Source of the DNA: Oceanobacillus sp. FSL K6-2867
Lineage (GTDB): Bacteria > Bacillota > Bacilli > Bacillales > Amphibacillaceae
Assembly: GCF_037963145.1 (NCBI RefSeq)
Contig: NZ_CP150144.1
Location: 558,001-622,000, forward strand
DNA: 64,000 nt
Direction: 5' to 3'
The first letter of the stretch is position 1; each line of letters starts with the position of its first letter. The notes below the pieces were generated by a model. The model was given only the letters and a program-made list of their open reading frames with translations, was not told the origin of the DNA and searched no databases. Below are positions 6,330 through 62,234 of this stretch, in pieces. A program made the translations under genes and the position numbers.

Positions 6330-7733
6330 TTATCCCCTCTTAACCTCATCCTCGATTAATTCTTCCTCGATTTGTTTATCTTTATGAGTCATAATTTTTT
6401 TGCGTGCCTTGTAAATCACAATTAGAGCAATAAACCAAACGGGAGTTATCATTAAAGAAACACGTGTATCTTCCGCAATTGCAAGCACAACAAGAACGAA
6501 TGTCAGGAAAGCAAGGATTAAGTAATTTGCAAATGGATAAAACGGCATCTTAAATTTGTTCACTTTTGCGAGATCAGGTCTTGTTTTACGGTATTTTAAA
6601 TGACTGATGACCGTAATCCCCCAAATAAATATAAAACATACTGTAGAAATACTTGTAACGAGTGTAAATACTCCTTCTGGCATTATATAGTTTAATGCGA
6701 CAGAAATTAAAACAACTGCAGCCGAAAAGAATAATGCATTGGAAGGAACCTTCCGTTTATCAAGCTTGGCAAACTTTTCGGGTGCGTTTTTCTCTTTGGC
6801 GAGTGAATATACCATCCGGCTTGTACTGAAGATAGCACTATTACATGCTGAAGCAGCAGAAGTTAGAACGACAAAATTGATAATGCCAGCAGCTCCCACA
6901 ATACCAACTACCGTAAAGACTTGGACAAATGGGCTCTCAGTTGGGTTGATAGCCGTCCACGGATACACACTCATAATGACAAGAAGTGCACCAATATAGA
7001 AAATAATAATTCGAATAGGAATATTATTAATCGCTTTAGGTATAACTTTCTCTGGGTTTTCTGTTTCACCAGCTGTAAGTCCTACAAGTTCGATACCAAC
7101 AAACGCAAATACGACCATCTGAAACGAAAGGATGAAACCATTTACACCATTTGGAAACATGCCACCGTGGCTCCATAGATTCGTGAAACTGGCTCCACCT
7201 GAATCCGTAGAAAAACCACTAATAATCATAACAATACCAGTTACAATTAAGGCTAAAATTGCGAGGACTTTAATTAATGCAAACCAGAATTCCATTTCTC
7301 CAAACAGTTTTACGGTGGCCAAGTTCATACATAATAAAATAACAAGTGCAATTAATCCTGGCATCCATTGTGGTATAGTTGGAAACCAATACTGAGTATA
7401 GAGACCAACTGCTGTTAAATCAGCCATTGCAATAGAAATCCAACAAAACCAATATGTCCAGCCAGTTAAAAATGCTGCCATTTCACCTAAATAGTCTCTA
7501 ACAAAGTCAACAAACGAGTGATAGTTTAAATTACTTAGCAGCAATTCTCCAAGTGCACGCATGATTAAAAAGAGAACGACACCTGTGATCAAGTATGCGA
7601 ATAATATGGATGGTCCTGCTAAATGTATTGATTTTCCCGCACCTAGAAATAGTCCCGTACCAATTGCTCCACCAATAGCTATCAGTTGTACATGTCTGTT
7701 TTTTAAGCCCCTATCTAATTTTTGTTCTTGCAT
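6330..7733 (-). CDS. APC family amino acid permease, D-serine/D-alanine/glycine type
   Basis: A 12-helix amino acid:proton symporter of the AAT branch of the APC superfamily. The N-terminal signature GLKNRHVQLIAIGGAIGTGL and the segment AGPSILFAYLITG are typical, and ETENPEKVIPKAIN marks the loop after helix 6. It most resembles CycA/AapA proteins that carry glycine, D-alanine and D-serine. The start is the ATG at 7733, preceded by GAGAAGGG; an upstream in-frame start lies within the ribosome binding site. A tandem glycine riboswitch with a terminator sits in the leader, which strongly supports glycine as the substrate. Confidence 0.9.
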   Translation of the reverse strand: MQEQKLDRGLKNRHVQLIAIGGAIGTGLFLGAGKSIHLAGPSILFAYLITGVVLFLIMRALGELLLSNLNYHSFVDFVRDYLGEMAAFLTGWTYWFCWISIAMADLTAVGLYTQYWFPTIPQWMPGLIALVILLCMNLATVKLFGEMEFWFALIKVLAILALIVTGIVMIISGFSTDSGGASFTNLWSHGGMFPNGVNGFILSFQMVVFAFVGIELVGLTAGETENPEKVIPKAINNIPIRIIIFYIGALLVIMSVYPWTAINPTESPFVQVFTVVGIVGAAGIINFVVLTSAASACNSAIFSTSRMVYSLAKEKNAPEKFAKLDKRKVPSNALFFSAAVVLISVALNYIMPEGVFTLVTSISTVCFIFIWGITVISHLKYRKTRPDLAKVNKFKMPFYPFANYLILAFLTFVLVVLAIAEDTRVSLMITPVWFIALIVIYKARKKIMTHKDKQIEEELIEDEVKRG

Positions 7734-7834
7734 ATAATTCCCTTCTCTCAACTTTTTTGTTAATTATTATTTAATTTAGTGGTCTTTTATAGAACATCAT
7801 TTTAAATGATATAACTGAAAGATCCCCCATTTAA

Positions 7835-7880: not shown

Positions 7881-8045
7881 TTTACCTGAAAGTTTATCCT
7901 TCTATAATAGAGGGTCCCCTTTGGTGGCATAAATTGCACTCTCCAGAGTAGCGTCCTGTATTGGTGCTTTTACCTGAGAGATTAATTCCAATGGTTTTTT
8001 TGGAACTTGCTCCTTCGGTGGCGATATGCTTCGCTCTCTCCCAAT
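7865..8045 (-). ncRNA. Tandem glycine riboswitch
   Basis: Two glycine aptamers lie in a row on the minus strand, ahead of the permease. Aptamer 1 (about 8045-7962) contains GGGAGAGAGC, GCCACCGAAGGAGCAAG and CTCTCAGGTAAAAG. Aptamer 2 (about 7950-7868) contains CTGGAGAGTGC, GCCACCAAAGGGG and CTTTCAGGTAAAAGGAC. These are the hallmark conserved blocks of the gcvT RNA family. Tandem aptamers with a short linker are the classic form. Control of a transporter rather than the glycine cleavage genes is known for this class. Confidence 0.93.
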
Positions 8046-8220
8046 ACAATCATCCGCAAATCATGTTGTTGTATAATATATTTAATTGTAGTAACAATAG
8101 AAATTTTATTATAACATATTATTGGAATAATCCAAGGAATTTCATTAAACTTAAAATCAAAATAAAGCGATTATATTATGTGTTGAAACACAGGTGGGAA
8201 TATTTAAAACTCAGTTTGTT

Positions 8221-17297: not shown

Positions 17298-18122
17298 TTA
17301 ATTGCTGTCACCGACTGGCAAGACTGCACCTTCGTAATTGTCCATCATAAAGTTTTGAATTTCTTCAGACTTCAGTACTTCAACCAGTTTCTTCAATGCT
17401 TCGTTATCAGCATCTTCCGATCTTACAGCAATAACGTTTAGATATTCAGATTCCTCGTCTTCAACAAATAAAGCATCCTCTAACGGATTAAGTCCTGCAC
17501 CAATAGCATAGTTTGTGTTAATAACAGCAAGTGTATCTTCTTCTGCATTATAAAGTTCAGGGAGCAGGGCTGGATCATAATCTGGTGAGAAAACTAAATT
17601 TTTCGGGTTTTCAACGATATCATCAATTGTCGCAGCAGATTTTTTTACACTGTCGTCTAAAGTAATCAAGCCTTCCCGCTCAAACAATGTTAAAATACGT
17701 CCATGATCTGAAACAGAATTACTTAAAATAACTTCAGTTCCATCTTTAATATCATCTACAGATGCAATACCTTTTGAATAAACACCCATTGGTTCAACAT
17801 GGATAGCTCCAAGGGATTCAATCTCATAGCCAGTGTCTTCAACGGTTTGATTTAAATATGGAATATGCTGAAAGTAGTTCGCATCTAATGTGCCATTATC
17901 TAAATCATCATTTGGAAGTACATAATCCTGATATTCTTCAATATGAAGTGTTACTCCTTGTTCTTCAAGCAATGGCTGAGCTTCTTCCAAAATTTCTGCA
18001 TGTGGAGTGCTTGAAGCTCCAACAGTGATTTCTGTTTCCGATCCATTGTCTGAATCATTTCCACCGCACGCTGCTAATAAAAGTACGAGTGCAAATGCCG
18101 CAATTGCTAAAAACTTTTTCAT
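17298..18122 (-). CDS. metQ: Methionine ABC transporter substrate-binding lipoprotein MetQ
   Basis: A 274-residue NlpA/MetQ family lipoprotein. The signal peptide ends in the lipobox LLAAC. The mature part starts ITVGASSTPHAEILEEAQPLL and contains DYVLPNDDLDNGTLDANYFQHIPYLN, both diagnostic of methionine-binding proteins. The membrane-anchored protein delivers methionine, including the D form in Bacillus, to MetP and MetN. It is the last gene of metN-metP-metQ, 64 bases after metP, all under a SAM riboswitch. Confidence 0.95.
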   Translation of the reverse strand: MKKFLAIAAFALVLLLAACGGNDSDNGSETEITVGASSTPHAEILEEAQPLLEEQGVTLHIEEYQDYVLPNDDLDNGTLDANYFQHIPYLNQTVEDTGYEIESLGAIHVEPMGVYSKGIASVDDIKDGTEVILSNSVSDHGRILTLFEREGLITLDDSVKKSAATIDDIVENPKNLVFSPDYDPALLPELYNAEEDTLAVINTNYAIGAGLNPLEDALFVEDEESEYLNVIAVRSEDADNEALKKLVEVLKSEEIQNFMMDNYEGAVLPVGDSN

Positions 18123-18186
18123 TTTTGTTCTTCCTTCCCACTATTTTATTGAATTGATAAAGATAGTTCCAATTTCCATGTTAAAC

Positions 18187-18855
18187 TTAACGTTTATCAA
18201 GCTTATTTGTGATAAAATCTCCAATAAATTGGAAAATAAACACGATAATTACAATAATAACGGTACAAAGAAATACAACATCAAAATCTCTGCGCTGGAA
18301 TCCGAAATAATAAGCGTAGCTCCCAAGGCCACCTGCACCTATCGCTCCAGCCATAGCTGTATAGCCAATTAATGCAATTGAGGTAACTGTAAGCCCTGAA
18401 ACCAATGCTGGCATTGATTCAGGGAGCAGAACGCGAAAAATAATTGTTCGTGTTTTGGCACCCATTGCTTTTGCTGCCTCGACCACACCTTTATCTACTT
18501 CCTTAAGCGCAATTTCAACAAGTCTTCCGTAAAACGGTGCAGAACCAATAATCAGTGCTGGTAATGCTGCGTTTGGTCCACGTATTGTTCCGACAAGAAA
18601 GTTGGTAAACGGAAATAATAATAAGATTAATATAATGAACGGAATTGCTCTAAATATATTCACAAAAGCCGCTACGATAAAATTAATAAATTTATTTTGC
18701 CAAATGCCTTCTTTTGACGTTAAATATAGAAGCAAGCCTAATAGCAGACCAAATATACACGTACCAATTACAGATATAACGGTCATATAAAATGTTTCAT
18801 AAACTGCTTCAACTAAATCATCATATTTAATATTTGGGAATAACTTAGTTAACAT
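18187..18855 (-). CDS. metP: Methionine ABC transporter permease MetP (MetI)
   Basis: A 222-residue inner-membrane permease with five to six helices, the same length as Bacillus MetP. The EAA loop is VVEAAKAMGAKTRTIIFRVLLPESMP, which contacts the ATPase. NIFRAIPFIILILLLFPFT is a conserved periplasm-facing segment of the family. Its start overlaps the end of metN by 11 bases, implying translational coupling. Confidence 0.95.
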   Translation of the reverse strand: MLTKLFPNIKYDDLVEAVYETFYMTVISVIGTCIFGLLLGLLLYLTSKEGIWQNKFINFIVAAFVNIFRAIPFIILILLLFPFTNFLVGTIRGPNAALPALIIGSAPFYGRLVEIALKEVDKGVVEAAKAMGAKTRTIIFRVLLPESMPALVSGLTVTSIALIGYTAMAGAIGAGGLGSYAYYFGFQRRDFDVVFLCTVIIVIIVFIFQFIGDFITNKLDKR

Positions 18856-19876
18856 CCCGGATAACCTCCACTTCGACCGAGGTTTGTTCCTGTATAAAGC
18901 TTACTGCTCTACCAATTTCCTCTTGTTCACCTATAGCTTGAACGAATAAAGTACCATATCCGCCAGCCTGTGTTTGTGTAATTTTTCCTTGTAAAATATT
19001 TAAATCAATATCAAAGCGCTTTGCCAGTTGGCTTATAAGCGTTTGATTGGTTGCTTCCCCTAAAAAGTGAAGCTTAAGAATATTACCATTTTCATAGTTC
19101 TCAATTAAATTGGTAATGTCATCTTCTTCATCATGCATCCCCATAATTTGCTGTACAAATTTCTTCGTAACAGGCTGTACTGGATTGGTAAATACATCAA
19201 GAACATTACCTTGTTCAACAATTTTTCCATTCTCCATAACAGCTACTTGGTTACAAATTTTCCGAATCACATGCATCTCGTGTGTGATTAGAATAATTGT
19301 CAGTCCAAGTTTTTGATTAATATCAACGAGCAAATTCAAGATTGCATTCGTCGTTTCCGGATCCAGTGCAGATGTTGCTTCGTCACATAATAGCACTTTG
19401 GGATTATTCGCAAGTGCCCGGGCGATACCAACACGCTGCTTTTGTCCGCCACTTAACTGTGACGGATACGCTTTTTCACGTCCGCTTAATCCAACCAAAT
19501 CAATGAGCTCTTGTACTCGCCTTTCACGCTCTTGTTTTGGAACTCCCGCGATTTCCAGCGGAAATGCAATATTTGCTTCAACCGTTCTGGACCAGAGCAA
19601 ATTGAAATGCTGAAAAATCATCCCAATGCCCTGTCTTGCCAAGCGGAGCTCTTTAGAATTAAGTGCGGTTATTTCTTCATTATTAATAACTATTCGTCCT
19701 GATGATGGTTCTTCCAGTCGGTTAAGCAGTCTGACGAATGTACTCTTTCCTGCACCACTATAGCCAATCACACCGAAAATATCACCTTCAGGAATCGTAA
19801 GGGTCAAATCATCAACAGCTGTAATGTCATTATTATTTAGTTTAAAAACCTTACGTAAACCCTCAATCGAAATCAC
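18845..19876 (-). CDS. metN: Methionine ABC transporter ATP-binding protein MetN
   Basis: A 343-residue ATPase. Walker A is GYSGAGKSTFVRLLNRLE, the Q-loop region is GMIFQHFNLLWSRTV, the signature LSGGQKQRVGIARAL and Walker B LLCDEATSALDP. A C-terminal ACT-like NIL domain (about residues 265-343) is present; in characterised transporters it binds methionine and causes trans-inhibition. The start is a GTG with GGAGG seven bases upstream. Confidence 0.96.
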   Translation of the reverse strand: MISIEGLRKVFKLNNNDITAVDDLTLTIPEGDIFGVIGYSGAGKSTFVRLLNRLEEPSSGRIVINNEEITALNSKELRLARQGIGMIFQHFNLLWSRTVEANIAFPLEIAGVPKQERERRVQELIDLVGLSGREKAYPSQLSGGQKQRVGIARALANNPKVLLCDEATSALDPETTNAILNLLVDINQKLGLTIILITHEMHVIRKICNQVAVMENGKIVEQGNVLDVFTNPVQPVTKKFVQQIMGMHDEEDDITNLIENYENGNILKLHFLGEATNQTLISQLAKRFDIDLNILQGKITQTQAGGYGTLFVQAIGEQEEIGRAVSFIQEQTSVEVEVIRDVN

Positions 19877-20034: not shown

Positions 20035-20143
20035 CGTTCTCTCATCTGTCAAAGTTTACTTTGCAGGAATTGGCACCTTTCAAAAATTGAAGGTTGCCGC
20101 GGTTTCAAAGGGCCAGTCCCTCCACCGCTCAAGATAAGAGATA
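20035..20143 (-). ncRNA. SAM-I riboswitch (S-box) of metNPQ
   Basis: The conserved blocks are all present on the minus strand: CTCTTATCTTGAGCGGTGGAG, then GGGACTGGCCC, then GAAACCGCGGCAACC, GGTGCCAATTCCTGC and the closing GACAGATGAGAG. With the terminator that follows, high SAM should stop transcription of the methionine importer. This matches the known S-box in front of the Bacillus yusC (metN) operon. Confidence 0.95.
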
Positions 20144-53194: not shown

Positions 53195-53926
53195 TTAAAA
53201 TAAACTCTCTAGTAAAAGGAAAATCCCTGTAAACAATAATAGAATGTATGTAAACAGTCTGAAAACCTTTTGATTAATCCATTTAAACAGAAGCTGTCCC
53301 AGGAATAACCCTAAAACCACAAACGGAACCGCATATAAACTCGATTCCCAAATCACTATATTTGTACCCGTAAAAATGATTTGCGTTATAAGACTGACAA
53401 GATAAATAAAGAGATAAAATGCTAAAGTTGTTGCCCGCAGCTTTGCTTTTTCCGTATCTGCTCCAGTAAAATATAATAATAATGGTGGTCCAGGCATGCC
53501 AACACTCGTTGTTAACCCGCCAGATATCCCTCCAACGATGAAATCTCTTATTGGAGTTGGCTTTACTTTGAAATTTAGCATTAACAGCACGGTTAAAAGC
53601 AAAATAAGGATACTAATTCCCAGCTTGAAAATGTTCATATCCTCGATAGCTGTAATAATGATGACACCTACAGGAATGCCAGTTAAACTTCCTAACGTAA
53701 ATCGCTTTACAATCTTAAAATCAATATCTCTTCTAATTTTATATACTAATGCAATCGAAATAATTAAGGATAAAATAATATTTATCTGGATTGCTTCTTG
53801 AGGTAAAAATAACATAAGCAAAAATGGTGTAGCCATAATCGAAAAGCCAAACCCAGTACTTGTTTGGAGAATAGAAGCAACTAAAATAATCGTAATAAAT
53901 AAAAATATCGTTTCCAATATGTACAC
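53195..53926 (-). CDS. TauE/SafE family sulfite/sulfonate exporter-like protein
   Basis: 243 residues with seven to eight membrane helices. The two family repeats begin LQTSTGFGFSIMATPFLLMLF and VGGISGGLTTSVGMPGPPLLLYF. Members move sulfite, sulfoacetate or other small anions; the substrate is not known. Monocistronic. Confidence 0.9.
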   Translation of the reverse strand: MYILETIFLFITIILVASILQTSTGFGFSIMATPFLLMLFLPQEAIQINIILSLIISIALVYKIRRDIDFKIVKRFTLGSLTGIPVGVIIITAIEDMNIFKLGISILILLLTVLLMLNFKVKPTPIRDFIVGGISGGLTTSVGMPGPPLLLYFTGADTEKAKLRATTLAFYLFIYLVSLITQIIFTGTNIVIWESSLYAVPFVVLGLFLGQLLFKWINQKVFRLFTYILLLFTGIFLLLESLF

Positions 53927-54048
53927 CCTCTAGCCTGCATGATCTTGTACATATTTCATCATAGCATGAATCAGGTGTTTTTTGTTCTGCTCGGTAAAAA
54001 TAGAGGGGTGGATCTTATTTATATATGAACGATATTTACAAAGAAGAA

Positions 54049-54072
54049 GCCACCTGATATGAATCAGATGGC
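54049..54072 (-). terminator. Terminator of ectABC
   Basis: GCCACCTGAT and ATCAGATGGC form the stem, with TTCTTCTTTG following on the minus strand. Confidence 0.8.
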
Positions 54073-54085
54073 CTAAATCAAACTA

Positions 54086-54472
54086 TTATTCAACTAAAAG
54101 CGGATAGTACCCTTCCTCATTATGTGTTTCTGTCCCAACTAATGGCGGGTTGAATACACAAACCATTCGCATTTGTGTACGTGCACGAAGACGATGCTTA
54201 TCATTATCATTCAGCAGATACATTGTTCCAGGCTTAATTTGGTAAACATCTCCAGTTTCCACCTTTTCAATTTCCCCTTCTCCCTCGATGCAATAAACTG
54301 CTTCAATATGATTTTTATACCAGAAAAAGTTATCCGTACCAGCTTTAATAATCGTATCGTTCATACTAAAACCAACGCCATCCTTCTTCAATATAAATCT
54401 GCGGCTCGACCAGTTTTCACTGAATGTTTCGTCCTCTGTTCCAATAATTTCTTCTAATGATTTAACGATCAT
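54086..54472 (-). CDS. ectC: L-ectoine synthase
   Basis: 128 residues, a cupin that cyclises N-gamma-acetyl-diaminobutyrate to ectoine. Characteristic segments are MIVKSLEEIIGTEDETFSENWSSRR, the cupin stretch EAVYCIEGEGEIEKVETGDVY and YLLNDNDKHRLRARTQMRMVCVFNPPLVG. Length matches known EctC. Last gene of the ect operon, 29 bases after ectB. Ectoine is an osmolyte made at high salinity. Confidence 0.97.
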   Translation of the reverse strand: MIVKSLEEIIGTEDETFSENWSSRRFILKKDGVGFSMNDTIIKAGTDNFFWYKNHIEAVYCIEGEGEIEKVETGDVYQIKPGTMYLLNDNDKHRLRARTQMRMVCVFNPPLVGTETHNEEGYYPLLVE

Positions 54473-54501
54473 AGTACATTCCCCTTTCTATTTATCCTTC
54501 A

Positions 54502-55782
54502 TTATTTGTTCAATACGTGTTTAATACTGTCATCTAATAGCTGAAATCCCTTTTCTAATCCCGCTTCGTCAATAATAAGCGGCGGCAGGAACTTAACAAC
54601 TTCGTCATCAGGACCAGAAGTTTCTACAATTAAACCACGCTGAAATGCTTCTGCACAAATTTCAGTCGCTAGACCTTCTTCCTCTACTGCAATTCCTTGC
54701 ATTAATCCTCTGCCCCTTGCTTCTCCATTCAGTTCAGGATATTTTTCAATTATTGTACTTACAGCAGACTTTAGAATTTCTGCTTTTTCCTGAACTTCTT
54801 TTTCAAAGTCATTATTTTTCCAATAGCGCAATGCTTCGGTTGCTGCAATAAACGCTAAATTATTTCCACGGAAGGTACCATTGTGTTCACCCGGACCCCA
54901 TTTGTCATGTTCCGATTTGATTAATGTAATTGCCATTGGCAGACCAAAGCCGCCGATCGATTTGGAAAGACAAACAACATCCGGTTCAATACCAGCCGGC
55001 TCAAAGCTAAAGAAAGTACCGGTCCGGCCATTCCCCGCCTGCACATCATCTACAATTAATAAAATGTCCCAGCGTTTACACAGTTCCTCTATCTTTTGCA
55101 ACCATTCGATTCGTGCTGCATTAATGCCGCCTTCACCCTGTACCGTTTCCAGAATAATGGCAGCCGGCAATGCCACACCACTGCCACTATCCTCTAAGAA
55201 CCGCTCTAAATAGGCGGTGGAATCATGGTTTTCCACATAGTTATCAAATGGCATAGATACGGCATGATGAAGTGGTACACCTGCTCCATGACGTTTAAAG
55301 GAATTGCCTGTCACAGAAAGAGAACCAATCGTCATCCCGTGAAAGGCATTTGTAAAGCTGATTACGGTTTCCCGTCCCGTTACCTTTCTAGCAATTTTCA
55401 GAGCACTTTCCACCGTATTTGTTCCAGTTGGACCTGGAAACATAATTTTATAGTCAAGCTTACGTGGTGTAAGAATTATTTCTTTAAAGTTTTCAAGGAA
55501 TTCTTTTCGTGGAGTTGTACCCATGTCGAGGCTATGTATAATGCCATCATTTTGGATATAATCAATCACTTTTTGCTGCATCGTCTCATCATTATGGCCA
55601 TAATTCATTGTTCCGGCACCGGCAAAAAAATCAATATATTCCTTGCCATCCGTATCCCAAAGCTTATAGCCCTTTGCTTTATTAAAAACTGTCGGCCACC
55701 CTCTGCTATAACTTCTTACTACAGATTCCACTTCCTCAAATGTTCTCATTTTCGCATCATTTAATACAGCTGTAGTCACCAA
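54502..55782 (-). CDS. ectB: Diaminobutyrate-2-oxoglutarate transaminase
   Basis: 426 residues, a PLP class III aminotransferase that makes L-2,4-diaminobutyrate from aspartate semialdehyde. Landmarks are [48 protein letters not shown] and the PLP lysine in [16 protein letters not shown]. It lies between ectA (8-base gap) and ectC. First enzyme of the pathway. Confidence 0.97.
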
Positions 55783-55790
55783 ATCATCCT

Positions 55791-56306
55791 TTACCTTTTA
55801 TTTTTTATAGGACCTATCATGAATAGCAATTCATCTTCATGCCCTTCAGCTGGAAAATCCTCTGAAGAGAAATATTCACTGATATTGCATTTTGTCTCAA
55901 GCTTCTTTGCAAGACCTTTAAATAATGACTGTGACGCTTTATTAGAAGGTGAAACCGTTGCTTCAATATATTGAACCGTTTCACATGCTGTACGGTTCAA
56001 TAATTGATACAACATCTTTGTTGCTAATCCTTTACCCCGCTCAGATTCATTAACAGCAACCTGCCAAATGAATAATTTATCCATTGTATTCGGATGCAAA
56101 AACCCGGAAATAAAACCAACAATGTCCCCATCTCTTTCGGCCACGATCGATGTTTCTGAGAAAATATCGCACCACATCAGATAACTATATGATGAATTCA
56201 GATCAAGTACTTTTGTATTTTTTATAAGCTGCCAAACAACCGATCCATCGTCTTTGTCTGGCTTACGAAAATGAAAATCCGTTTCAATATCAGTTACTGT
56301 CGCCAT
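55791..56306 (-). CDS. ectA: L-2,4-diaminobutyrate acetyltransferase
   Basis: 171 residues from the ATG at 56306. A GNAT acetyltransferase: [20 protein letters not shown] at the start and acetyl-CoA loop [19 protein letters not shown]. The ribosome binding site is puzzling. The only strong one, AGGAGG at 56338-56343, is 32 bases upstream of this ATG and seven bases before an in-frame ATC at 56330, which would add eight residues. The ATG agrees with the usual EctA N-terminus. First gene of ectABC. Confidence 0.95.
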
Positions 56307-56845: not shown

Positions 56846-58807
56846 TTAAATATAACTTCTATCAGCTAATGCTGCATATTCCCTGAGACATTCCGGGTTT
56901 CTTAAAGATGCTTTGTTTTTAACCTCTTGTCCACGAACAATCGAACGAACAGCTCCTTCCACCTTTTTACCGTTATTCGTATACGGAACTTCTTTGACAG
57001 CATAAATGCGGCGTGGTACATGGCGTGGTGATGCTTTTTTCCGTACATTGCGACGGATTTGCTCTACCAGTGCCTTATCCACATCACCATTTTCAGTCAC
57101 CACACACAATACGATTTCTTCATCATTTTCAATTGGAAAGCCGAATACAATAGAATCTTTAATTTGCGGAATTTGCTCCACCACACGATAAATTTCCGCC
57201 GTACCTATTCGAACACCACCTGGATTCAATACAGTATCCGTACGGCCATAAATAATCAGCGAGTCGCGAGTAGTTTGCTCCGCTAAATCGCCATGCGTCC
57301 AAATGCCCTCACGCTTTGCAAAATAAGCGTTGAAATAGCGTTCATCTCCTCCATCGCCCCAAAATGTAAGGGGCATGCTTGGGAAGCTCTGCGTACAAAC
57401 TAGTTCACCTTTTTTACCAAGCACTGAATTACCATGCTCATCAAAAATATCAACTGCCATACCGAGCGCTTTACATGCATTTTCCCCTCGGAAAACTGGA
57501 TGAACCGGTGACCCCATGACAAAGCATCCAATAATTTCCGTACCGCCGGAAATGGATTCCAATAAGACATCTTTCTTGATCGTGTTATAAATCCAATCAT
57601 ACTGCTCACTAATGAGTGGCGCCCCGGAAGACATCATAACTTGCAGTTTAGACAAATCATGATTTTTACCAACTTCATACCCATATTTTTCGAGTGTATC
57701 AAGATATTTTGGACTTATACCAAAATGCGTAATACCTATTTCTTCTGCAATTTCCCAAAGAATACCGATACGTTCCTTTTGGATTGGTGAACCATCATAA
57801 AGCAAAATTGATGCCTCGCTCGCAAGACCAGATATAAGCCATGGATACATCATCCATGCCGTACTTGTATACCAGGATAAAACATCTCCCTGTTTCACAT
57901 CGCAATGCAGCTGATGCTCTTTCACATGCTGGAGCAAAACGCCACCGACAGAATGGACAATACATTTCGGCAAACCCGTCGTTCCAGATGTATATAAAAT
58001 ATAAAGCGGATGGTGAAACGGTACCCGCGTGAATGTCGGTACGTCCACATCATGTGCCAATAGCTCGCTCCACGTTAACAACTGCGTACCAACCCCCATA
58101 TCCAATTCTGGTATTTCTGACAAACTAACAACCGCAGACAGGTTTTTCAACTCATCGCTAATGGCCATTATGTTCTCACGTATATTAAATTGCTTTCCAT
58201 TATATTGATAATCAAGAGAAGCAATAATTACTTTTGGTCCGACTTGACCAATGCGATCAATAATCCCTTTGGCCCCAAAGTCGGGTGAGCAAGAGCTCCA
58301 AACCGCACCAAGTGAAGACGTTGCAAGTAATGAAACCAATGATTCCAAGCCGTTGGTCACAATCCCCGCGACACGATCGCCTTGGGTCACGCCAAGCTTA
58401 CGTAAACCAGCTTGCGCTTTTGCAACTAGACTGCGCAATTCAGCCATTTTCACTTTCCGCTGAACACCTTGCTCATTCGCTACATAAACCGCAACACGAG
58501 AAGCATCTCCACGCAATACATTTTCCGCTAAATTTAGACTCGCTTCAGGAAACCATTTTGCGCCTAACATACCCCCACCTTCTGCTGGAACAAAGGCTAT
58601 TTCACCTTTTTCCCCAATAATACCAGCAAAATCCCAAACCGCTGACCAAAAATCTCCAGGCTTTGCAATCGACCAGCTATATAGGCGATCATATGGAACA
58701 GCTGGAATTCCCACTTGTTCTGAAAACTTTTTAATATTCGACTCAGAAACTCGCTGTTCAGAAGGCTGCCATACTATATTGTTATCTCTTACTTGTTGAT
58801 CTATCAT
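56846..58807 (-). CDS. Acetoacetyl-CoA synthetase (acetoacetate-CoA ligase)
   Basis: About 653 residues, an adenylate-forming ligase of the AACS type. The N-terminal ACAS domain and FWSAVWDFAGIIGEKGE are present. The AMP signature is LYILYTSGTTGLPKCIVHSVGG, followed by HCDVKQGDVLSWYTSTAWMMYPWLISGL, diagnostic of AACS over acetyl-CoA synthetase. The C-terminal catalytic lysine is in VPYTNNGKKVEGAVR. It activates acetoacetate so thiolase can cleave it. Start: ATG at 58807, seven bases after GAGGAGAG. Last gene of the SAM-riboswitch operon, 139 bases after the symporter. Confidence 0.92.
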   Translation of the reverse strand: MIDQQVRDNNIVWQPSEQRVSESNIKKFSEQVGIPAVPYDRLYSWSIAKPGDFWSAVWDFAGIIGEKGEIAFVPAEGGGMLGAKWFPEASLNLAENVLRGDASRVAVYVANEQGVQRKVKMAELRSLVAKAQAGLRKLGVTQGDRVAGIVTNGLESLVSLLATSSLGAVWSSCSPDFGAKGIIDRIGQVGPKVIIASLDYQYNGKQFNIRENIMAISDELKNLSAVVSLSEIPELDMGVGTQLLTWSELLAHDVDVPTFTRVPFHHPLYILYTSGTTGLPKCIVHSVGGVLLQHVKEHQLHCDVKQGDVLSWYTSTAWMMYPWLISGLASEASILLYDGSPIQKERIGILWEIAEEIGITHFGISPKYLDTLEKYGYEVGKNHDLSKLQVMMSSGAPLISEQYDWIYNTIKKDVLLESISGGTEIIGCFVMGSPVHPVFRGENACKALGMAVDIFDEHGNSVLGKKGELVCTQSFPSMPLTFWGDGGDERYFNAYFAKREGIWTHGDLAEQTTRDSLIIYGRTDTVLNPGGVRIGTAEIYRVVEQIPQIKDSIVFGFPIENDEEIVLCVVTENGDVDKALVEQIRRNVRKKASPRHVPRRIYAVKEVPYTNNGKKVEGAVRSIVRGQEVKNKASLRNPECLREYAALADRSYI

Positions 58808-58946
58808 TTCATTTCTCTCCTCTTTTAGGCTCTGTTGTTGGTAATTAAACAATTTATACAAACTGTGTCAAAGGTTAAGTAAAAAGCTAGCTTCTAAATA
58901 GAAAATGTTTGTTGAAGTTAAAAAACATCTCTGTAAGACCGGGAAA

Positions 58947-60461
58947 CTACGATGATTTCTTAGAAACCGTAATAGATTCATGCTGATTGTCTGTAGCTCT
59001 CTGTGTGGCCAGGCACGTAACGATCATCACAACAAATGCGATAACTGAAGCAAAGAACATCGCTAAATAGATATTTCCAATAATACTTTGATTTGTAAAT
59101 AACACATACAATACTGTACCAGTAATGACGGCAGCAATTGCTCCAGGCCCATTTGACTTTTTCCAAAAATATCCTAAAACAACAGGTGCAAGAATCCCAC
59201 TGATTATTGCTGAAAAACTAAATTGAATTAAAATCGATAACGATTCAGGGCGCTCCAACGATATATATAATGTAGCTAAACCTGCAAATACCAGGGACAC
59301 TTTTGCTACCTTTACGGCATTTCTATCTAAAACGTCTGTCGCAATCGGTTTCTTTGATAAAATTGGTGCTAATACTTTATAAAAATCGTTTCCGATACTA
59401 GATGTAATCCCCAAATAAAGGCTGTCTGTACTTGAAAGAATAGCTGTAATAATTCCTATTATGATAACTGCCGCAAGGATTGGTGGAAATGATTCAATCA
59501 CATAAGCTGGAATCGCTGAATCGGCACTAGCCAATGATGGAAAAATCACTCGTGCTGCTAATCCTCCAAGAACCATTAAAGTTGAGATAAAAAATAGCAC
59601 AACTCCTGCTGATAATGTAAATGGAGCAAGCTGCTCTTCACTTTCAAGCGACAATACTTTATTTAATAAATGTGGCATTAGCACAAAGCTAAATAATAAA
59701 AATTGCACGGCCATTATCGCTATTGCGCTATCATATGGACCACCAACTGATAAAAATCCAGTCAGATTCGGGTCAATAGCCCCTAATCTTTTTGTCAGCT
59801 CTCCAAATACATTCCATCCTCCCCCAATCGTCCAAAATAGCGAAACAAAAACAAGGATAGAAGTAGTTGCCATCAAAATTCCTTGAATACCGTCTGTGAT
59901 AATCTGCGCGTAGGCACCACCAAGTCCAATGTATAGTATCGTGATCCCTACACCAATGATAATCCCCCAGAAATATGGGATGTTCAGGACCGACTCAAAG
60001 ATTGTTGCAAGTCCAACATTTTGACCGACAATATAATATACATTGAATAAAATTAATACAGCTACAATGACTTGAAGCGCTTTGCTGTTGTATCTTCTTC
60101 CAAGCCATTCTGGCAATGTTGAAACACCACCAAACTTTTTGTTGTATCTCCAAAATGTTTTAGCGAATAATAGTAAACCAATCCACGAAACACCGAAACA
60201 TCCTAACGTATACCAAAGTACGGATGTACCATATTCATAAGCAAGCCCGGGAACACCGATAAATAAATTGGCACTTGAATACGTGGTCGCAAAGCTTGCA
60301 CCGACAAGTACGGGGCTTACCTTCCCACGAGCCGTTGCAAACCCAGCCATCGACTTGCTATGGCGCCCGCCTCTTTTGCCCATCCAAACAATATATCCAA
60401 AATAAACAACTAATATCATAATAATTGTCCAAATTAAAGAATCCGGTACTGTAGGCATCAT
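58947..60461 (-). CDS. SSS family sodium/solute symporter
   Basis: 504 residues, 13 membrane helices. Sodium-site and family regions are KVSPVLVGASFATTYSSANLFIG, the signature-like GLGGAYAQIITDGIQGILM and ILSSTDSLYLGITSSIGNDFYK. The context between a thiolase and acetoacetyl-CoA synthetase suggests uptake of acetoacetate or 3-hydroxybutyrate, but this is inference; pantothenate or proline carriers share the fold. The ATG directly follows the small ORF upstream. AAAGGAG precedes it. Confidence 0.9.
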   Translation of the reverse strand: MMPTVPDSLIWTIIMILVVYFGYIVWMGKRGGRHSKSMAGFATARGKVSPVLVGASFATTYSSANLFIGVPGLAYEYGTSVLWYTLGCFGVSWIGLLLFAKTFWRYNKKFGGVSTLPEWLGRRYNSKALQVIVAVLILFNVYYIVGQNVGLATIFESVLNIPYFWGIIIGVGITILYIGLGGAYAQIITDGIQGILMATTSILVFVSLFWTIGGGWNVFGELTKRLGAIDPNLTGFLSVGGPYDSAIAIMAVQFLLFSFVLMPHLLNKVLSLESEEQLAPFTLSAGVVLFFISTLMVLGGLAARVIFPSLASADSAIPAYVIESFPPILAAVIIIGIITAILSSTDSLYLGITSSIGNDFYKVLAPILSKKPIATDVLDRNAVKVAKVSLVFAGLATLYISLERPESLSILIQFSFSAIISGILAPVVLGYFWKKSNGPGAIAAVITGTVLYVLFTNQSIIGNIYLAMFFASVIAFVVMIVTCLATQRATDNQHESITVSKKSS

Positions 60462-60563
60462 TTATTCTCCTTTCCCTCTTTTGGATAATAATTTTTCCAT
60501 ATGATTAAACCAACTGCCCAGAATAAGGCAAGCAATATAAAATACGTTAATATCATGATTGTC
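60458..60563 (-). pseudogene. Small membrane protein upstream of the symporter, probable frameshift
   Basis: After AGGAGG, an ATG at 60557 (or 60563) opens a frame reading MTIMILTYF. If one T is removed from the run of five T that follows, it continues ILLALFWAVGLIIWKNYYPK and KEGKENK, a one-helix protein whose stop overlaps the symporter ATG (ATGA). As written, the frame instead reads 31 residues to a TAA at 60462. The corrected product looks like the small accessory proteins that accompany some SSS symporters. Either a sequencing indel or a true mutation. Confidence 0.5.
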
Positions 60564-60692: not shown

Positions 60693-61859
60693 TTACCAGC
60701 TTTTTGGAACTTCTATTAATAGAGCCATTCCCTGACCGCCGCCACCGCAGAGAGATGCAATACCTTTTCCACCACCACGGCGTTTAAGTTCTTTTGCAAG
60801 AGTTAAGGCAAGTCGAAAACCCGTTCCGCCAAGCGGATGACCAATTGCAATTGCGCCACCATTAACATTCACTCTTTCATAGCCAATTCCAAGCTCACGG
60901 CAGCTTGCGATAACCACACTTGCAAAAGCCTCATTGATTTCAAATAAATCAATATCGCTCAATGTTAGGTTCGTTTTCTCTAAAACTGCTTTGATTGCCT
61001 GGGCAGGCTTTGTATGTAGGCTCGTATCTGGCCCCGCGACTTCAGCCCAACCAAGAATACGAGCTAACGGCGCTTTACCAAGCTCCTCCGCTTTCTTTTC
61101 GGATGAAACAATGCCAACGCTTGCGCCATCTGTCATTTGCGACGCATTTCCCGCTGTGATTGTACCGTCGTCAACAAACGCCGGTCTTAATGTTGCTAAT
61201 TTTTCTATGTTCGAATTGAGGCGAATGCCTTCATCGCTAGAGAAGGTTTTGCCTTTAAGTTTGATTGAAACAATTTCATCTTGCAGGCGACCTTTTTCCA
61301 GCGCTTCAGCAGCTCGTTCCTGTGACAACTGTGCGTATTGATCCTGCTCTAGTCTATTAATCTTAAAATCTTTATTTTTTAAATCCGTCAGCACCCCCAT
61401 CGAATCATCTGCTAACGAGCACCATAATCCGTCGTTTATTAATGTATCCGTAAATTGCAGGGATCCCATCGACAGCTCCTTACGAATCGGAGCAGTGTAC
61501 GGGGCATTTGTCATCGAGTCAAATCCACCAGTAATATATAATTCCCCTTCGCCAAAATGAATACGGCGGACAGCGTCGGAAATGGATGCTAATCCAGCTA
61601 AACATACATTGTTTAAAGTAACTGCAGGAACAGATAACGATACACCGGCATCCTTCGCAACTCTTCTAGCCGGATTTTGACCCTGCCCCGCTTGAAGCAC
61701 CTGTGCAAGTATTGTCCCATCAGCTTCTTTTGCCTCAGGTACTCGTCTCACTAACTCTTTAACAGCTAAAGTTCCTATCTCTTTTGCCTCTAATCCAGAT
61801 AAAAATCCTTTCCACTTCCCAAAAGGTGTTCTTACTCCTTCTAGAATCACCGTATTCAT
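60693..61859 (-). CDS. Acetyl-CoA C-acetyltransferase (thiolase)
   Basis: 388 residues. The nucleophile Cys86 is in TLNNVCLAGLASI; the C-terminal His and Cys are in NGGAIAIGHPLGGTG and IASLCGGGGQG. It differs clearly from the FadA thiolase at 25 kb. Next to acetoacetyl-CoA synthetase its likely job is to cleave acetoacetyl-CoA to two acetyl-CoA. It is the first gene after a SAM-I riboswitch with terminator. The AAAGGATGAGGC ribosome binding site precedes the ATG. Confidence 0.92.
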   Translation of the reverse strand: MNTVILEGVRTPFGKWKGFLSGLEAKEIGTLAVKELVRRVPEAKEADGTILAQVLQAGQGQNPARRVAKDAGVSLSVPAVTLNNVCLAGLASISDAVRRIHFGEGELYITGGFDSMTNAPYTAPIRKELSMGSLQFTDTLINDGLWCSLADDSMGVLTDLKNKDFKINRLEQDQYAQLSQERAAEALEKGRLQDEIVSIKLKGKTFSSDEGIRLNSNIEKLATLRPAFVDDGTITAGNASQMTDGASVGIVSSEKKAEELGKAPLARILGWAEVAGPDTSLHTKPAQAIKAVLEKTNLTLSDIDLFEINEAFASVVIASCRELGIGYERVNVNGGAIAIGHPLGGTGFRLALTLAKELKRRGGGKGIASLCGGGGQGMALLIEVPKSW

Positions 61860-61904
61860 AACGCCTCATCCTTTCCTATAAATCTGCTCATTTTGTCCAT
61901 AAAA

Positions 61905-61932
61905 AAACCCTCTTTCCAAAGAAAGAGGGTTG
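61905..61932 (-). terminator. Riboswitch terminator before the thiolase gene
   Basis: ACCCTCTTTC and GAAAGAGGGT form a perfect 10-bp stem with a 4-base loop, followed by seven T on the minus strand. Its 5' arm CCCTCTT can instead pair with AAGAGGG of the aptamer P1 strand. Confidence 0.92.
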
Positions 61933-61952
61933 AAATCATAAACTATTGCGGA

Positions 61953-62068
61953 TTCCCCCTCTTATCTTTCAGACATTTCTGTCTGTTGGAAGTAGCACCA
62001 TTCCCCCTAAAGGGGCGGTTGCCGGGCGTCATAGGGCCAAATCCCTCAGCCAACTCGTGATAAGAGTA
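61953..62068 (-). ncRNA. SAM-I riboswitch (S-box) of the thiolase-symporter-AACS operon
   Basis: On the minus strand the conserved blocks run ACTCTTATCACGAGTTGGCT, GAGGGATTTGGCCC, TATGACGCCCGGCAACC, a P3 stem GCCCCTTTAGGGG, GGTGCTACTTCC and the closing AAGATAAGAGG. The internal P4 (CAGACAGAAATGTCTG) is also visible. The terminator and mutually exclusive antiterminator are complete, so high SAM should turn the operon off. Its target genes are not methionine genes, which is unusual. Confidence 0.95.
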
Positions 62069-62234
62069 ATCTGTTATTTTGTTTTATTGTTGAAATATAT
62101 TCGTTTATTAAATTATTGCAATATTAACAGAACGCAAACAGAAGGTCAATAGTTATTTTGTAAACGTAACTAAACAGCTTCTATTGACAGCCTTCTATTT
62201 TGCAAGTATAGTTAAAGTTGAGAATAATACATAC

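Follow-up and report, generated by a model that had tools for sequence, protein, structure and literature searches.

A conserved S-box ahead of a symporter, an acyl-CoA ligase and a thiolase in Oceanobacillus suggests scavenging of a sulfur-containing acid at methionine shortage

A full-length S-box (SAM-I riboswitch) with the anatomy of a transcriptional OFF switch precedes an operon for a thiolase, a membrane microprotein, a symporter of the SSS family and an acetoacetyl-CoA synthetase (AACS)-like ligase in Oceanobacillus sp. FSL K6-2867, and the S-box and the symporter stay together in relatives while the enzymes around them are exchanged. An S-box is usually taken as a sign of genes for methionine or SAM; this one goes with a clade of transporters and a CoA-dependent pathway, and dozens of Bacillales, most of them salt-associated, have kept it there although the neighbouring enzymes differ. 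That the arrangement has been kept across dozens of species suggests an undescribed scavenging of a sulfur-containing acid at methionine shortage. The starting point is one stretch of 64,000 nucleotides (contig NZ_CP150144.1, positions 558,001 to 622,000 of the forward strand), called the window throughout, in which the leader of the operon comprises the following elements:

62094..62149, minus strand: candidate sigma-70-type promoter hexamers 5' of the S-box (three matches to 9 of 12 consensus positions, with consensus likeness as their whole basis)
61959..62066, minus strand: S-box / SAM-I riboswitch aptamer (Rfam RF00162, 87.7 bits)
61918..61969, minus strand: antiterminator, a duplex of the 5' terminator arm with P1's 3' strand and the bases following it (ViennaRNA folds, P1 enforced or not)
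61906..61931, minus strand: intrinsic terminator with an 11-bp stem, a 4-nt loop and a T-run (-16.4 kcal/mol)

The match to RF00162 at 62066-61959 covers the whole model (positions 1-108, E 1.8e-19) and lies well above the gathering score of 44.4, which excludes a chance or partial S-box; with model R1 the same element, one of 14 S-boxes in the 4.40-Mb host genome, scores 96.0 bits. The 5' arm of the terminator is complementary to the 3' strand of P1 and to bases beyond it (AAAGAUAAGAGGG). When the complete leader is folded with ViennaRNA, P1 and the terminator form together (-59.8 kcal/mol), and when the 3' arm of the terminator is withheld, the antiterminator fold reaches -46.8 kcal/mol versus -42.7 kcal/mol for the fold with P1 closed; a P1-dependent exchange of terminator and antiterminator is thus seen in folding. 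The preliminary description, which had placed a full S-box with antiterminator versus terminator switching across this leader, is borne out in both respects. The leader shares the aptamer fold, the P1/antiterminator/terminator logic and the predicted OFF response to SAM with known S-boxes of the transcription-terminating type, exemplified by that of Bacillus subtilis yitJ, and differs from them in its targets, an SSS symporter, an AACS-like ligase and a thiolase. Provided that the aptamer binds SAM, as its sequence leads one to expect, plentiful SAM is predicted to switch the operon OFF, and on sequence grounds it is nearly certain that a functional S-box of the OFF type operates here.

The operon behind this switch consists of four genes:

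60693..61859, minus strand: thiolase of the acetyl-CoA C-acyltransferase subfamily, 388 aa (TIGR01930, 409.8 bits, cutoff 240.55; Thiolase_N/C)
60458..60556, minus strand: single-span membrane microprotein of 32 aa, MILTYFILLALFWAVGLIIWKNYYPKEGKENK, with a 4-nt overlap with the symporter start
58947..60461, minus strand: SSS-family sodium:solute symporter, 504 aa (PF00474, 164.2 bits, gathering score 22.8)
56846..58861, minus strand: acetoacetate--CoA ligase family enzyme, 671 aa (TIGR01217, 725.3 bits, cutoff 520.9)

The gene order agrees with the one read earlier from the letters (thiolase, small membrane ORF, SSS symporter, acetoacetyl-CoA synthetase). The thiolase can be aligned to a solved thiolase (5lp7) and carries the catalytic Cys-His-Cys motifs (NNVCLAG at 83, IGHPLG at 339 and LCGGGGQG at 370). 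The symporter shares the SSS family with the PanF- and PutP-type transporters, whose models are its best named ones; unlike these types, it stays below every named SSS cutoff (TIGR00813, 154.9 versus 184; panF, 153.7 versus 328.05), the equivalog cutoffs included (PutP, 118.8 versus 515.5; ActP, 32.3 versus 1099.25), and is accompanied by a conserved membrane microprotein. The latter matches no NCBIfam family above cutoff; its consensus among relatives, MILTYFxxxALFWxxGLxIWK..., lies directly 5' of the symporter gene, and a small hydrophobic ORF of like kind stands 5' of the SSS gene at 59 of 66 loci in a scripted scan that missed the window's own copy, which was located separately. On the 3' side of the operon lie the ectABC ectoine genes and a gene for a TauE/SafE-family protein (53195-56306, minus strand), in an order shared with Oceanobacillus polygoni (L051). 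A scan of the gap of ~540 bp between the operon and ectABC detected nothing like a terminator on the strand of the operon, and read-through into the ectABC region is possible.

Is the S-box a regular companion of these genes? A survey with one genome per species and alignment of the symporters gave 68 loci, or 67 once a Photobacterium locus (L193, 24% identity) had been left out. The 67 symporters are 49-97% identical to that of the window, the nearest being that of O. polygoni (97%), and their carriers belong mostly to salt-associated genera, judged by name. A same-strand S-box was found 5' of the symporter at 64 of these loci, where chance would yield ~1% (6.5 kb, one strand, the S-box density of the host genome). 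The three exceptions are Oceanobacillus rekensis (L127), with a decayed copy; L184, where the contig ends 2.4 kb upstream; and L187, from the betaproteobacterium Eoetvoesiella caeni, whose symporter (49%) has no S-box. The neighbours of the L187 symporter are a Rieske oxygenase-like gene, a reductase, a CoA transferase and a crotonase-like gene. In an order-level sample, the symporter occurs in 20 of 397 genomes, host included, and 12 of the 22 symporter matches were examined, all 12 having an S-box on the correct strand; some of these species are also among the 67, on which alone the main count rests.

The aptamers themselves covary. Among 96 distinct aptamers, standard pairs fill 93.7% of the pair cells, and at 17 of 30 pairs both sides have changed, a covariation above that of all 500 shuffles (0/500 as high) and of all slid controls, in an alignment that was fitted to the covariance model and so leans toward structure, and whose 105 S-box matches include some that are not 5' of a symporter, such as the one at window positions 20140-20039. 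A terminator-like hairpin follows within 160 nt in 83 of 92 S-boxes (the window's own, the degenerate one of O. rekensis, which is among the 83, and 90 of 101 matches, namely those 5' of the symporter), and in 72 of the 92 the P1 region can also form a duplex with the terminator arm at -6 kcal/mol or lower. Tandem S-boxes occur upstream at 26 of the 64 loci, with an intervening gene in L138 and L156; in L133, L139 and L145, the tandem S-boxes stand ahead of the operon and each is followed by a terminator-like hairpin. A plasmid search returned nothing beyond matches of 31-32%, in two Natribaculum records.

These counts bear on the idea, also raised in the preliminary description, where the riboswitch would have outlasted the replacement of its genes, that gene loss stranded the S-box before unrelated genes to which it has no functional link. 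The leader of O. rekensis (L127 = L052, 6640-6962) speaks for this idea, having lost the 5' strand of P1 and the antiterminator and altered its core bases while retaining the terminator, and the operon genes behind it are still open. Against this single case stand the S-boxes kept at 64 of 67 symporter loci across many genera, the covariation of the aptamers and the terminator-like hairpins that follow most of them (the decayed copy included), which together make stranding extremely improbable.

What varies from locus to locus is the enzymatic company. The first gene after the S-box at the 64 loci is a thiolase in 33 cases, an LLM flavin monooxygenase in 15, the symporter or the microprotein in 8, a molybdoenzyme that we take to be YuiH-like in 4, AACS in 3 and MetY in 1. 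For L138 and L156, the first S-box was used for this count, and these two together with L150 and L167 were assigned by eye, since in the scripted output their ORFs overlap the S-box or a nearer S-box was taken. No methionine gene separates the S-box from the thiolase, either in the window or in the 33 thiolase-first loci; predicted ORFs do so in L141 and L157 (~160 aa) and, on the opposite strand, in L128 (91 aa). The assignment of the S-box to this operon, as first proposed, is supported, with the caution that MetY stands in the row of the Ammoniphilus locus L156 and immediately upstream in O. rekensis (L052).

Partner labels, assigned by name matching in any gene of a locus, distribute over the 67 rows of the symporter tree as AACS 36, LLM 19, AcsL (a different acyl-CoA ligase) 5, YuiH 3 and none 4, and they change 9 times (minimum possible 4; shuffled mean 27.7) on a tree from which L189 is missing (its SSS frame was not recovered) and in which L184 was set to AACS by hand, from L116. 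The LLM monooxygenase goes with the S-box/symporter unit in 20 loci, being divergent and behind its own S-box in L158; in most LLM loci, the symporter shares no more than 54-62% identity with that of the window, and their substrate may differ from the window's. A thiolase-like protein of the SCPx type and a zinc-ribbon/OB protein of the ChsH2 type accompany AACS at many loci. Since no match to SCPx exists in the host genome, SCPx is dispensable, and on this ground the SCPx/ChsH2-type pair was dropped as an essential step. The Halobacillus loci L134, L136 and L151 have AACS without an adjoining thiolase, and among the relatives' loci the symporter is also found without an adjoining CoA ligase. 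The constant unit is the S-box with the symporter, usually together with the small hydrophobic protein; the adjoining enzymes vary.

The identity of the exchanged partners turns attention to sulfur. Those of the LLM type are members of the NtaA/DmoA family, and their best solved matches are the alkane monooxygenase LadA (3b9n, 562.5 bits) and, slightly behind it, dimethyl-sulfide monooxygenase (6ak1, 557.6 bits); the LLM proteins beside the symporter, and one behind another S-box of the host, match 6ak1 and 3b9n at 440-562 bits. An enzyme of the DmoA/LadA type is absent from the window operon and takes the place of AACS and thiolase in other S-box/symporter loci. DmoA converts dimethyl sulfide to methanethiol, and methanethiol so formed could feed MetY. 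The YuiH-like partners have the molybdopterin domain found in MsrP and sulfite dehydrogenases (sulfite-oxidase fold). Weaker as an indication of sulfur is the partner of the acyl-CoA-dehydrogenase superfamily in the AcsL loci, whose best solved match is a type-2 domain protein (398 bits), followed by nitrososynthase (101), acyl-CoA dehydrogenases (at most 88), DszC (69) and methanesulfinate monooxygenase (66). In the Ammoniphilus locus L156, the row reads S-box, MetY, S-box, YuiH-like enzyme, symporter, SsuABC-like transporter and acetate-CoA-ligase-like enzyme; MetY exceeds the TIGR01326 cutoff there as well as next to L052. Three further S-box operons (L120, L121 and L122) encode an SsuA-family ABC importer and an acetate--CoA-ligase-like enzyme, both of which were scanned in L122 only, and in L121 an AhpD-like gene adjoins the operon. 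These partners come from families that have organosulfur members, which suggests a link to organosulfur compounds; no enzyme of the window operon is itself diagnostic of sulfur.

Among the explanations offered in the preliminary description, a symporter that carries a methionine-related acid fits best. The view that SAM reports carbon status is disfavoured by the joining of the S-box/symporter unit elsewhere to families with organosulfur members, and recycling of a product of methionine breakdown is hard to reconcile with an OFF switch, under which scarcity of SAM would bring the genes into expression. A different sort of recycling has also to be considered: methionine synthesis through MetY/MetI frees acetate from O-acetylhomoserine, and CoA ligases under S-box control could recapture acetate or acetoacetate as acetyl-CoA. 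The acetate-CoA-ligase-like enzymes in the S-box operons L120-L122 and L156 would suit this proposal, as would the replacement of AACS by AcsL in 5 loci. In the loci seen, however, the ligases come with importers, either SSS or SsuA-family ABC; moreover, AACS is not an acetate ligase family, and the symporter does occur apart from any adjoining CoA ligase. By-product recycling accordingly appears very unlikely.

A more serious competitor is the literal reading of the annotation, in which the substrate really is acetoacetate or a simple ketone acid and low SAM acts as a nutritional proxy that turns on its uptake and use. The score of the ligase above the TIGR01217 cutoff and the expected motifs of the thiolase speak for it; the ligase can also be aligned along its length to a solved acetoacetate--CoA ligase (4wd1). 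The earlier assignment of these genes to acetoacetate or short-acid metabolism agrees with the family names but goes no further than names. The host has a second AACS (C1:1553927-1555879), 39% identical to the window ligase, with no S-box in a 17-kb cut. The same holds for the genus, whose AACS genes have an S-box in 0 of 26 sources holding 24 distinct loci (most with 1.5-kb flanks). The AACS proteins behind S-boxes are 69% identical among themselves and 39% identical to the genus set, and 43 diagnostic alignment columns part 35 of the former from 24 of the latter; the diagnostic changes include G335A, W339Y, N340P, S385K, D442E and C444I (window numbering). Several of these columns, the six named among them, fall in motifs that in acetyl-CoA synthetase form the lining of the acyl pocket. 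By sequence, the window ligase falls in a clade separate from the AACS common in the genus.

Beyond this group, the nearest AACS proteins are 44-47% identical and come from other classes of the same phylum; an S-box accompanies 0 of the 12 loci examined, out of 19 matches. Together with the genus loci, these rule out the S-box as a general trait of AACS genes. In two near-identical outside loci (L214 and L215), HMGL-like, biotin carboxylase and carboxyl transferase genes adjoin AACS, in what looks like a leucine degradation cluster with true use of acetoacetate, and in two others (L223 and L224, other classes, no S-box) AACS stands beside thiolase-like proteins, joined in L224 by an acyl-CoA dehydrogenase and a protein of the ChsH2 type. 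These 2 + 2 of the 12 outside loci count in favour of acetoacetate. The sets in L223 and L224 mean that the enzyme pair exists independently of the S-box; perhaps it serves ordinary acids or ketones elsewhere and may have been recruited to the S-box operon. Set against the S-box-free AACS of host and genus, the 43 dividing columns and the 20 loci in which an LLM monooxygenase goes with the S-box/symporter unit instead, acetoacetate as the natural substrate is a rather doubtful, minority possibility.

We therefore return to uptake and breakdown of an organosulfur carboxylate under repression by SAM, a reading of the operon that we hold to be moderately probable. The proposed course of events is as follows. 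With plentiful SAM, the aptamer would be held shut, the terminator would form and transcription would end before the thiolase; with little SAM, the antiterminator would prevail and thiolase, microprotein, symporter and acyl-CoA ligase would be made. The symporter would then bring in a carboxylate, most likely a sulfur-containing acid (a thioether, sulfonium or S-oxide), which the AACS-like ligase would convert to its CoA ester; the thiolase would cut the beta-keto ester into acetyl-CoA and a smaller sulfur acyl-CoA, the sulfur of which would end in methionine. Of this picture, the aptamer, the anatomy of the switch, the joint retention of S-box and symporter and the exchange of partner enzymes are computed results, whereas SAM binding, the sulfur content and beta-keto or beta-hydroxy nature of the substrate and the sequence of steps are inferred. 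Cleavage of an imported sulfur beta-keto acid by ligase and thiolase is, in our estimate, about as likely true as false.

Which compound could this be? The combined demands of symporter, ligase and thiolase would be satisfied by a beta-keto or beta-hydroxy acid that bears sulfur, and the substrate is probably a beta-keto or beta-hydroxy acid, beta-keto acid being the safest class to name, with acetoacetate itself possible. Dimethylsulfoniopropionate (DMSP), gonyol, 3-methylthiopropionate and sulfonates were considered as candidates. Gonyol, a marine sulfonium zwitterion, is an acid of the sulfur-bearing beta-keto/beta-hydroxy type. Four marine bacteria, none of them Bacillales, are reported to consume gonyol, through pathways that the authors call unidentified (PMC7221440). 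The salt-associated habit of the carriers fits a marine osmolyte as substrate but does not prove it. Extending these thoughts, one can picture a modular SAM-riboswitch route in halophilic and marine Bacillales, in which marine organosulfur zwitterions or their keto acids (for example sulfonium beta-hydroxy/keto acids of the gonyol type) would enter through the symporter and serve as methionine sources, the AACS-like ligase and thiolase removing acetyl-CoA to leave a DMSP-like acyl-CoA and a DmoA-like enzyme oxidising the thioether in sister loci. So specific a scheme is unlikely as it stands; were it true, it would provide a pathway for compounds whose bacterial catabolism has been reported as unidentified.

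The riboswitch can be read as a functional label, which predicts that an SSS clade and a clade of 'acetoacetyl-CoA synthetase' act in sulfur acquisition, and the label of acetoacetate metabolism that automatic annotation gives these genes may be mistaken. Were a marine sulfur osmolyte the compound taken up, Gram-positive bacteria would be tied to that part of the sulfur cycle. A literature search, with most subscription papers and RegPrecise beyond its scope, found nothing that links an S-box or SAM riboswitch to an operon with acetoacetyl-CoA synthetase, thiolase, symporter or acyl-CoA synthetase, or that places one in Oceanobacillus.

The other S-boxes of the host offer a measure of what the signal means in this organism. 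Elsewhere in the genome they stand before three LLM genes, two other SSS genes, one MetY-type gene and an Fe-ADH/MetQ-like pair. One more S-box has behind it a gene of unknown family and then two methionine-synthase-like genes, of which the first was scanned. The remaining targets, named by reading only, are metQ, cysH, a homocysteine-methyltransferase-like gene, metI, metY and metK. Since these S-boxes precede sulfur and methionine genes, the S-box is in this host mainly a sulfur and methionine signal, and it is likely that the operon of the window is part of sulfur/methionine supply.

Some of these units deserve separate description. Those of L194-L196 comprise an AhpD-like gene with an LLM gene and a different SSS gene, an FMN reductase with an LLM gene, an LLM gene nearest to SfnG (272 bits, cutoff 383) that lies two genes ahead of the MetY-type gene, and a third SSS gene. 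Outside these loci, a further S-box unit, L124:2936-8312, runs from its S-box through MetN-like, permease-like, FMN-dependent dehydrogenase (lactate/alpha-hydroxy-acid type), Fe-ADH-like and MetQ-like genes, all named by reading except the FMN-dependent dehydrogenase, and may serve the uptake and oxidation of a methionine hydroxy analogue. The window itself contains a second S-box (20039-20140, minus strand, 100.4 bits) ahead of a MetN/permease/MetQ-like importer (17298-19876), whose scores with the models for MetN and MetQ stay under the respective cutoffs, and a glycine riboswitch (7952-8053, minus strand, 70.1 bits) before a permease-like gene at 6330-7751, likewise named by reading.
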